47,024 nucleotides of DNA. It comes from Terriglobia bacterium (lineage in GTDB: Bacteria > Acidobacteriota > Terriglobia > 20CM-2-55-15). Location: contig DASXLG010000198.1 in assembly GCA_036496425.1 (NCBI GenBank), forward strand, positions 1-47,024, read 5' to 3'. Each line of letters starts with the position of its first letter. The first letter of the stretch is position 1. A program made the translations under genes and the position numbers. Positions 41,972 through 45,318 of this stretch are shown here, one piece after another. The notes beneath the pieces are model-generated. The model was not told the DNA's origin. It did not search any database and saw only the letters and a program-made list of their open reading frames with translations.

Positions 41972-42389
41972 GTGCTTGGACGCGTCCCAGGAGATTGTCG
42001 CGCGACGACAAAGTGCTTGGACGTGTCCCAGGAGATTGTCGCGGGGCGACAAAGTGCTTGGACGTGTCCAAGGAGATTGTCGCGGGACGACAAAGTGCTT
42101 GGACGCGTCCCAGGAGATTGTCGCGGGACGACAAAGTGCTTGGACGCGGCCCAGGAGATTGTCGCGAGACGACAAAGTGCTTGGACGCGTCCCAGGAGAT
42201 TGTCGTGAGACGACAAAGTGCTTGGACGCGGCCCAGGAGATTGTCGCGGGACGACAAAGTGCTTGGACGCGGCCCAGGAGATTGTCGCGGGACGACAAAG
42301 TGCTTGGATGCGGCCCAGGAGATTGTCGCGGGACGACAAAATGCTTGGACGCGTCCCAGGACTTTGTCGTCCCGCGACAAAGTGCTTGG
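41972..42389. repeat. 41-bp tandem repeat array, about ten units
   Basis: The unit starting GTGCTTGGACGCGTCCCAGG recurs at exact 41-base steps: 41972, 42013, 42054, 42095, 42136, 42177, 42218, 42259, 42300, 42341, and a partial unit at 42382. Each unit contains the stem-loop TTGTCG-N5-CGACAA and usually the palindrome GGACGCGTCC, with variants such as GGACGTGTCC and GGACGCGGCC. In the last unit (42361-42383) the hairpin has a longer stem, ACTTTGTCG/CGACAAAGT, and its loop is TCCCG, the reverse complement of the usual CGGGA. The array lies between the alcohol dehydrogenase and the ECF sigma gene, without spacers. Confidence 0.95.
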
Positions 42390-42467
42390 CCCTTCTGCCT
42401 TCCAAAGTCGGCTCGCCAGGTATATTTAACAATCACTTGCGGCTTTCGAAAAAAATCTTTGCCACCT

Positions 42468-42484
42468 GTGACAAACAGGGGGGT
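42468..42484 (+). promoter_or_regulatory. ECF-type promoter-like motif before the sigma gene
   Basis: GTGACAAACA followed by six G and T lies 28 bases before the sigma factor ATG. CGTTGT follows 17 bases after GTGACA, in the place of an ECF-type -10 element (CG-rich start). The same motif recurs at 43556. It may be the autoregulatory promoter of the sigma factor. Confidence 0.5.
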
Positions 42485-42512
42485 CCGAAACGTTGTACCT
42501 GATGAAGGGCAG

Positions 42513-43067
42513 ATGAGCACCGGAATGGATGGAGAGGAAACAAAGGATGGCCGTGGCGGACGAACAACCGAGGACGTGTTCGTCGAGCACTACGATTTCA
42601 TGTTTCGCGCGGCCCGGAAATCTCTCAGGAACACGGAAGATGCCCAGGATGTGATTCAAAACTTGTACTTAAAGCTCATCGATTCCAAGCTTCCGCCGGA
42701 TGTCTGGAGGGACCCGAAGGGCTACCTCTACAGGACCGTGATCAATGCGTGTCATGACTGGAGACGGACGCGGAAAAGCCGCAGGGAAAACCGGGGAGTC
42801 GAGCAGCTCGAAATCCGGGAGCCCCGCAGCGAGCAGGCGAACCAGAATGCGGTCCACGAGGTGGAGCATCTGATGGGCAATCTGGATCGAGGTGTCGCCG
42901 ATATCGTCAGGCTTCACGCGGAAGGCGGTATGAGCGACGCGGAAATTGCGGTCATGGTGGGCGGCTCCCGTTCGAAGATCGCCATGATTTTGAGCCGGGC
43001 GCGGGACAAGTTGAGAAAGTTAAGAGGCGGCAGGAAGGAGAAACATGTTCGGTTGGAAAAAGAGTAG
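42513..43067 (+). CDS. ECF sigma factor
   Basis: About 184 residues from the ATG at 42513 (GAAGGG upstream). Region 2 includes VEHYDFMFRAARKSLRNTED and AQDVIQNLYLKLID. Region 4 has LHAEGGMSDAEIAVMVGGSR, then KIAMILSRARDKLR. No anti-sigma gene is adjacent; a PadR-like gene overlaps its 3' end by 23 bases. The reading frame is open upstream through the 41-bp array, but the ATG at 42513 is the normal family start. Confidence 0.88.
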   Translation: MSTGMDGEETKDGRGGRTTEDVFVEHYDFMFRAARKSLRNTEDAQDVIQNLYLKLIDSKLPPDVWRDPKGYLYRTVINACHDWRRTRKSRRENRGVEQLEIREPRSEQANQNAVHEVEHLMGNLDRGVADIVRLHAEGGMSDAEIAVMVGGSRSKIAMILSRARDKLRKLRGGRKEKHVRLEKE

Positions 43068-43536
43068 AGAGTTCGATGAAATCCTGAGGAGATATTTTCC
43101 GCGCTCCAAGAGCGATGAAGTCGTTGCGGCGCGCGACCGTTTCCTGTTGCTGGTGAAACAGCGGCGTACCTTGCAGGAGGCTCTGGATAATTTCACCAGT
43201 TCCAAGCTCGTGCCCGACGTCACGAAGTTCGTAGCGCTCGCGCATGTCGATCAACTCGTCCTGACGGCGGTTTATCTGTTTCATGGAGAGGGCACCAGCC
43301 TGGGGATTGACGAGAAGGTCAGCGATCTGACCTCCCACGTCGTCGATACCGGAGCGGTCTTTATATCCCTCGACCGTCTGGAGCGCGGACAGCTGATTTC
43401 GTCGAGGCCGGTGCAAATGGAAGGCTATGACGAGCCCCAGTTGGTCTTCAGCATCACGGCAGAAGGCAAACGTATGCTGAGTTCAGTAAAAACCGGAGCC
43501 AGGCGCCTGGTCGAAGCACTCGCGGATTTTGAATAG
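43045..43536 (+). CDS. PadR-like winged-helix protein
   Basis: A 163-residue protein. The N-terminal half is charged and helical. The C-terminal half fits a PadR winged helix: VDTGAVFISLDRLERGQLIS, then QLVFSITAEGKRML. Strong GGAAGGAG precedes the ATG. It overlaps the sigma gene by 23 bases, so the two regulators are made together. Confidence 0.72.
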   Translation: MFGWKKSREFDEILRRYFPRSKSDEVVAARDRFLLLVKQRRTLQEALDNFTSSKLVPDVTKFVALAHVDQLVLTAVYLFHGEGTSLGIDEKVSDLTSHVVDTGAVFISLDRLERGQLISSRPVQMEGYDEPQLVFSITAEGKRMLSSVKTGARRLVEALADFE

Positions 43537-43555: not shown

Positions 43556-43573
43556 GTGACAAACAGGGGGGTG
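43556..43573 (+). repeat. Second copy of the GTGACAAACAG6 motif
   Basis: GTGACAAACA followed by seven G and T repeats the motif at 42468, and CGCATG follows 16 bases after GTGACA. An A-rich run with TTT precedes both copies. It lies between the PadR-like stop and the convergent DUF3738 stop, so no sense gene follows it in the plus direction. Confidence 0.6.
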
Positions 43574-43583
43574 AAGCGCATGT

Positions 43584-44453
43584 TCAGTTCTCCGTGGGGC
43601 GCTGGACGGAGTCAATCACGATTACTTCAACGGGACCTTTGGTGGATTCCAGTCGCAAGCCCAATTGTTCCTGTATCGCTGTCGTCAGGGTTGGCCCTTC
43701 GCTGTCCGGTGCCGGGGGGCCTCCTGGTGTGGCTTGCAGGTTATCGGGTATCCATTCCAGCTTGATGTCATACAGACCCGTAAGATTGGTTTTATCAATG
43801 ATGGGTCTATTCATCATGCCGATCAGCTGGTTTATCAAGGCGGATAAAGCGATGGCCTTTCCCTCGAACTTCCTGCCACCCGGAACCGTACCAAAACCGC
43901 CAATACTGTACATGCCCCTTATCATTTCCGGTAAGCCATTCGGCTGGCGTCGAATTGGGGCTGATGGATCGCGTGGAAGAATGGGGCCTTGATTCTCCGA
44001 AAGAGTGAGCTTTGGGCCGCCCTTGGCCACTACAAGTTCATAAACTGGAAGCTGTCTTGTCTCTTGATGCAACTTCAGTTGGAAACGGTCTTCCAGGAGG
44101 GACTGGAGCATGAGATCCATCACATCCGGCTTGTTCAGGTCTCGTTGCGTGGAGCGGGCCGGAACTCTGCCCTCGGGCGCTTTTGCTTGAATCTCCCACA
44201 AGTCTGTGCCGACCCAGGCCGGTCCACCGAGCACCTGAAAACCCCTTATTCGGTGTGAAAGTGCAATCAATGCCTTCAGCGGTTGGCCCGCAGCGACATA
44301 CTCGCCGCCAGGGGACGTATTTACCGGCCCTCGCGCGGTGGTGGGCTTAATGCTTGCCACTTCAAATGACGGCTTCGGCCAGGGCGCTGGCGTCTGTGCC
44401 ACCGCCGCTATAGCGGCCATTAAGAATGCGACTATCACCGCAATCCATCTCAT
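43584..44453 (-). CDS. DUF3738 (TIGR03435-type) secreted protein
   Basis: About 289 residues from the ATG at 44453 (GGAG upstream), with signal peptide MRWIAVIVAFLMAAIAAVAQ. The pattern SFEVASIKPTTARG, QSLLEDRFQLKLHQETRQ, LPVYELVVAKGGPKL and NLTGLYDIKLEWIPD identifies the family recalled as TIGR03435/DUF3738. It is expanded in Acidobacteriota, where it is often near ECF sigma factors. Function unknown. The longer frame to 44549 is not supported. Confidence 0.9.
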   Translation of the reverse strand: MRWIAVIVAFLMAAIAAVAQTPAPWPKPSFEVASIKPTTARGPVNTSPGGEYVAAGQPLKALIALSHRIRGFQVLGGPAWVGTDLWEIQAKAPEGRVPARSTQRDLNKPDVMDLMLQSLLEDRFQLKLHQETRQLPVYELVVAKGGPKLTLSENQGPILPRDPSAPIRRQPNGLPEMIRGMYSIGGFGTVPGGRKFEGKAIALSALINQLIGMMNRPIIDKTNLTGLYDIKLEWIPDNLQATPGGPPAPDSEGPTLTTAIQEQLGLRLESTKGPVEVIVIDSVQRPTEN

Positions 44454-44497
44454 GCTGTGCTCCAACGGAATACTGACCAAGAGTCTGCCGCGGGAAG

Positions 44498-44520
44498 GCG
44501 TGTGGTGGGAAGTAAAAAGC
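44498..44520 (+). repeat. 23-bp inverted repeat, left copy
   Basis: GCGTGTGGTGGGAAGTAAAA and three further bases match the reverse complement of 45729-45751 at 22 of 23 positions. The pair brackets the IS3 remnant. Weaker similarity continues upstream (GTCTGC). It is a dispersed repeat or a relic of an inversion. Confidence 0.7.
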
Positions 44521-44546
44521 ATTCGTAGAGGAAGGTGAGATAATTT

Positions 44547-45318
44547 CACGCGTGAACCGTCACCGAAACTTCCCAGGACAGCACGTAGCGGCTGTACCAG
44601 TCGATGACCGCCACCAAGTAGACGAAGCCGCCACGCAGCCGAATATACGTTATGTCTGTGCTCCAGACCTGATTGGGCCGTTCGATTTTCACGCCACGCA
44701 ACAGGTACGGATAGATCCGGTGTCCTGGATGTGCTGTCGATACCGCGGCTTCGGATAGATCGCCTCCAAGCCCATGAGTCGCATCAGCCGTTGCACTCGC
44801 TTGCGATTGACCATCCCGCCCTGCTTGCCCAGTTCGAACGTCATCCGCCGGCTGCCGTAGAACGCGTCTTCGTATACTGCTCGTCGATCCGCCGCATCAA
44901 CTCTAAATCCTCGGCGCTTTCGCCCAAGGATTTGTAGTACAAGCTGGATCGCGCCAGCCCCGCCAAATCGCACTGCTCGACGATGCTCAATTCCTGGTGA
45001 TTTGGTTCGATCCATTGCCGCTTCTCCTCTATCGCCGCAAGATCCCCGACTTTTTTTGCAACCAAATTGCACCTGCAACTTTCCGATCTGCCGGTAGAGT
45101 TCGTCCTTCTCCTGTTCATCTGCCACGTCGCGCCGTTCGCGAGCTCCAGAAAAAAGATCCTCGGCCGCCTCCTGCAAGTGTTTCTTCCAAGTTGTAATTT
45201 GATTTGGATGAACGCCGTGAGCCGTCGCCAACTCCTGAACCGTCCGCTGACCTTTGATCGCCTCCACCGCGATCTTCGCCTTGAACGCTCCGGTGTACTG
45301 CTTCCGCTGTCTTCCCAT
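44547..45318 (-). pseudogene. Degenerate IS3-family transposase (orfA plus orfB)
   Basis: OrfA begins MGRQRKQYTGAFKAKIAVEA (helix-turn-helix) at 45318. OrfB appears in other frames: EEKRQWIEPNHQELSIVEQC, then YGSRRMTFELGKQGGMVNRK, then IERPNQVWSTDITYIRLRGG and VYLVAVIDWYSRYVLSWE. At least two shifts beyond the natural orfA/orfB one are needed, and the integrase core stops after YVLSWE. The last catalytic segment is lost, so it is inactive. Confidence 0.88.

Follow-up and report, generated by a model that had tools for sequence, protein, structure and literature searches.

In the 47,024-nucleotide stretch of acidobacterial DNA analysed here (hereafter the window), ten tandem 41-bp units, each holding two dyads, precede an ECF sigma factor operon, and arrays of unlike sequence with related periods lie upstream of most members of an FN3-like gene family in the same genome. 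Our preferred reading, to which we give a probability of about 0.5, is that a dimeric DNA-binding protein controls the downstream promoter from the array, which would serve it as a helically phased binding platform; we infer the binding, the binder and the effect from the recurrence, gene linkage, period and symmetry described below.

The array in the window and its copies

At positions 41972-42389, TRF reported 10.2 copies of a 41-bp period with 93% matches and zero indels, and unit-by-unit extraction gave ten units, each offset by exactly 41 bp, with an array autocorrelation of z=22 at lag 41. The first-pass annotation had described ten 41-bp units with two dyads each, which these results bear out. 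Dyad symmetry was well above that of column permutations (z=5.5, p<0.001), a control that preserves both the composition and the repetition of the units. Dyad A, CTTGGACGCGTCCCAG, centred at 12.5 of the unit, alternates with dyad B, TTGTCG-N5-CGACAA, centred at 33, giving one dyad every 20.5 bp. This half-period spacing is a mathematical consequence of the array being its own reverse complement and is therefore not extra evidence by itself; the results across loci are.

Exact matches place the first dyad B at 41995-42011, with recurrences every 41 bp up to 42323-42339, and the last one, at 42364-42380, has an inverted loop, TTGTCGTCCCGCGACAA; the final unit of the copy in contig C178 is likewise changed at dyad B. 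Over the ten units all outer stem pairs of dyad B are intact (60/60). Dyad A varies: 4/10 units have lost pair 10-15 and 2/10 have lost pair 12-13. Substitutions lie in the central five bases of dyad B and in dyad A, in line with the earlier description of kept stems and of changes mostly in the second dyad and the bases around the first loop. The stop of an Fe-ADH gene (41966) lies 5 bp ahead of the array, and about 80 bp separate the array's end from a predicted ECF promoter. An open frame crosses the array into the sigma gene, but 41 is not divisible by 3, and we ascribe no coding role to it.

The source genome is a 6.16 Mb MAG in 407 contigs, from an acidobacterium akin to group-5 (gp5) soil MAGs, and the 41-bp unit is present in it at five places only: the window, further arrays in C178 and C367, and single units in C108 and C39. 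C178 and C108 share the leader and the ECF gene of the window, the gene being degenerate in C178 and truncated by the end of the contig in C108. In C378 an ECF/163-aa operon, 78% identical, follows a 41-bp array of diverged sequence (AGTCATTGGACGAGACCCATGACTCTTTCGCGCCGCGAATC), whose dyads occupy the same positions as those of the window and show paired changes, for example C-G to A-T. Among 100 relatives, the exact array sequence gave one weak 32-bp match and was otherwise absent. Confinement to a single assembly, named in the first-pass annotation as grounds for discarding the array, thus holds for the exact sequence and fails for the class, which occurs in same-genus and other-class genomes.

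REP, BIME and REPIN elements are short extragenic palindromes that are sometimes clustered (PMC3733652, PMC3116915), and dispersal of the arrays as REP/BIME elements by a RAYT transposase would account for their palindromic, extragenic character and for the single IS200-like Y1 transposase found near the array in C15. The unit, however, occurs at the five places listed rather than as one palindrome dispersed genome-wide in high copy, the sequence differs from array to array, the GTAG or CGTC end tag is absent from the units read directly, and the recurrent neighbours include no transposase family; fixed two-turn spacing and linkage to one gene family are further differences. With tag, copy number and neighbours all failing to fit, we rejected this origin as highly improbable. 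At the C15 locus itself (L085, 11843-16063), an FN3 gene is separated from a 41-bp array by the Y1 transposase together with a double DUF3738-type gene, and GGAATTCAGGTGTGCGCCCCCTCC is present on either side, which suggests an insertion. Three other candidates were also set aside. CRISPR repeats alternate with unique spacers and accompany cas genes, whereas the units here run head-to-tail without spacers and cas genes were not seen among the flanking genes examined; a search for a phage or plasmid origin found nothing; and no Rfam family reached its gathering score, the matches being sub-threshold miRNA only.

Promoters and genes next to the arrays

Downstream of the array, all on the forward strand, a leader (42390-42466) links it to the promoter; by blast of the own-genome copies, this leader is common to C178 and C108 and partly to C367. 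The predicted ECF promoter (42467-42499) comprises a -35-like TGTGACAAAC, a spacer and a -10-like CGTTGTACC, and its assignment draws on the recurrence of ACAAACAGGGGGGTC, which occurs 7 times in the genome against 0 for the reversed control and at several loci lies upstream of an ECF or FN3 gene. An ECF-type sigma factor gene follows (42513-43067, 184 aa; Pfam Sigma70_r2 E=2e-9, TIGR02937 above cut-off), and its end is overlapped by the gene of a 163-aa protein (43045-43536), a distantly PadR-like winged helix (TIGR03433 padR_acidobact E=1.3e-4, below its cut-off) with an 82% identical paralogue in C378. Modelled alone, the 163-aa protein gave a pLDDT of 44 and no usable fold. The -35 region of the promoter recurs at 43556-43573. 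In C378 and C178 this second promoter runs into an FN3-like gene; the window instead passes abruptly into a DUF3738 region at this point, and the FN3 partner gene is missing. The DUF3738 (TIGR03435) gene past the break lies at 43571-44549 and has a paralogous stretch in C379.

Across loci, most arrays lie distal to the sigma-54 or ECF promoters predicted there. Sigma-54-like -24/-12 sites were found in 12/64 upstream regions, 11 of these 12 at -75 to -127, against a background of about 0.016 expected per region and 1/55 downstream regions, and ECF-like promoters (ACAAACAGGGGGGTC...CGTTGTAC) occur at other array loci, the window among them. Two further conserved elements were noticed. A palindrome pair resembling CGCAACCTATAGGTTGCG lies roughly -200 to -130 from FN3 genes, between the array and the sigma-54-like promoter, in C39 and C304 of this genome, in C185 of G003 and in C489 of G004. 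The element CCGCATGTCTCTC stands about 80-120 bp before FN3 genes in C203, C188, C346 and C379 of this genome (-81 to -121), is also visible at C309, and is possibly a further promoter class.

Upstream activating sequences of sigma-54 enhancer-binding proteins, such as NtrC sites, are 17-bp 6-5-6 dyads located upstream of -24/-12 promoters. The arrays share this dyad format, a -24/-12 site is predicted downstream in the 12/64 regions above, and bEBP genes lie next to arrays at several loci. The arrays differ in having far more sites and a locus-specific sequence, and in serving ECF-type promoters too, that of the window being ECF-like.

The same promoter positions bear on whether the palindromes are instead transcribed as a chain of hairpins, in a leader or a separate RNA. 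The five unpaired bases at the centre of dyad B would suit a hairpin loop, and paralogues retain the stems through paired changes, C-G to A-T at pair 5-20 being one example. Arrays distal to the predicted promoters would, however, lie outside the gene's mRNA, RNA does not need a strict two-turn spacing, and the Rfam matches were spurious as well as sub-threshold. Pairing reaches modestly into the dyad centre, a test that is weakly informative between a hairpin and a double-stranded DNA site. We consider a structured-RNA array improbable.

Recurrent neighbours of the arrays are FHA/GAF or plain sigma-54 activator genes, ECF factors and PadR-like proteins. ECF genes were present at six of the array loci clustered and sigma-54 activator genes at several; PadR-like loci had been selected for and are not independent evidence. 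The first-pass annotation had proposed that recurrence beside ECF genes would support a function. Such recurrence was found at the six loci, but the dominant link is to the FN3-like family (26/38), and after random sampling and the FN3 survey an ECF-specific element was rejected as the main link.

Recurrence of the arrays and linkage to an FN3-like gene family

The loci found via the 163-aa protein carry arrays of quite unlike sequence, with periods of 20, 21, 40-42 or 123 bp by TRF and autocorrelation, and a random sample of 498 kb of the genome added four to five more, from which about 50-60 arrays per genome are extrapolated. No array in the 20.5-bp series was found in 330 kb sampled from family and class relatives. 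The flanking genes of the arrays led to the uncharacterised family, whose product of about 211 aa has a helical N-terminus and a fibronectin-III domain. By profile search this genome has about 50 near-full members; G004 gave 28 matches when fragments are counted, G001-G003 gave fewer, and a small number came from two genomes belonging to other classes. In the structural model an N-terminal helical region precedes the FN3 domain and Foldseek matched FN3 domains only; with no recognisable DNA-binding fold in either, the protein was rejected as a DNA binder.

Of the FN3-like genes in this genome, 38 had sufficient flank for the test; an upstream array precedes 26 of these, and the other 12 have no detectable one. 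The lags of the 26 arrays are only 20, 21, 40, 41, 63, 80, 82, 123 and 124, a 20-21 bp series. Repeats of mixed lags were found in 19 of 311 random 1500-bp genome blocks (Fisher p=2.6e-18 against the FN3 upstream regions), and the downstream control flanks exceeded z=5 in 0/51 cases. Upstream arrays also occur in the genomes of four related species of the same genus and in two from other classes of the phylum; arrays without a nearby FN3 gene were seen in C65, C345, C135 and C367. In two same-genus genomes, arrays with a lag of 21, 41, 42 or 83 bp also lie near genes of a second protein family, of about 240-280 aa and lacking any Pfam match above cut-off (L155 957-1694, L080 3138-3857, L082 3800-4645 and L228); at L082 the array is downstream of the gene.

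Grouped by sequence, the 52 arrays analysed make up 40 families. By unit-column permutation, 38/52 are dyad-symmetric at p<=0.01 and 45/52 at p<=0.05; the strongest stretch per region was chosen, which makes array z and p values descriptive rather than a discovery test, and the independent evidence is the gene-linkage test with its controls. The long-unit arrays (63-124 bp, n=11) contain several unlike dyads, and a 20-21 bp dyad lattice was best or tied in 7/11. A common GC profile around the dyads was not decisive. Taken across loci, dyads and spacing argue that symmetry and helical phase are under selection, over and above what simple duplication would produce. The first-pass annotation had suggested selection on structure or protein binding, naming as options a protein-binding array, a nucleoid or segregation site, structured RNA and a recombining minisatellite; the dyads at fixed two-turn spacing support selection across loci, and of these options a protein-binding role at the DNA level is therefore the one favoured.

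Like bacterial minisatellites (VNTR), the arrays are tandem with homogenised units, and a neutral or selfish palindromic repeat, expanded by slippage or template switching and functionless, would explain the locus-specific sequences (40 families in 52 arrays) and the variable copy number, reduced to one unit in the C108 paralogue. We think this unlikely: the arrays are set apart by dyad symmetry, by a quantised period common to unrelated sequences, by a strong link to a single gene family on one side only, and by conservation in other classes of the phylum. Somewhat less likely still is a nucleoid-organising or segregation site, or an insulator, outside gene-specific control. Such a role would fit the extrapolated number of arrays per genome, and parC and iteron arrays, which are bound by ParR-type proteins, are likewise phased direct repeats of about 20 bp; the linkage here, however, is upstream only and specific to a gene family, tens of loci per genome each have a private sequence, and partition genes were not recognised among the recurrent neighbours. 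Comparable arrays were not found in limited open-access literature searches, mostly demanding many terms together.

A proposed phased platform upstream of an expanded family

In the platform reading that we prefer, the array would be a cis-acting upstream element presenting dyad sites every 20.5 bp, two turns of DNA, on a single face of the helix. Most likely these sites would be filled cooperatively by a dimeric DNA-binding protein that governs the downstream promoter, which in the window is predicted to drive the ECF sigma/PadR-like operon, its usual partner being the FN3-like gene; an equivalent architecture precedes most FN3-like family members and may work in the same way. Recombination would homogenise the units at each locus, yielding a private sequence per locus with symmetry and spacing retained. 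Candidate binders are a PadR-like protein, a sigma-54 activator and other factors.

Some arrays contain several unlike dyads, which counts against the platform reading, and the arrays as a whole share neither a protein nor a motif; one sequence-specific regulator therefore cannot read them all. Also against it count the 12/38 FN3-like genes with no array detected, the arrays lacking an FN3 gene nearby, the downstream array at L082, and the want of a DNA-binding fold in the FN3-like protein. A more tentative proposal, which we hold to be possible and clearly less probable than the platform, is an element class set by geometry and not by sequence, with phased dyads every two turns and a private sequence on each paralogue of the expanded family, perhaps as an individual address by which a dimeric or symmetry-reading protein would recognise each paralogue.

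Our findings suggest that the arrays represent a new kind of upstream control element. If so, the dozens of family loci would lend themselves naturally to comparison, their geometry being conserved while their sequence is free, making it directly testable how a bacterial regulator reads arrays of unlike palindromes, and why one FN3-like family, with some fifty copies in a soil genome of an uncultured lineage, has such wiring.
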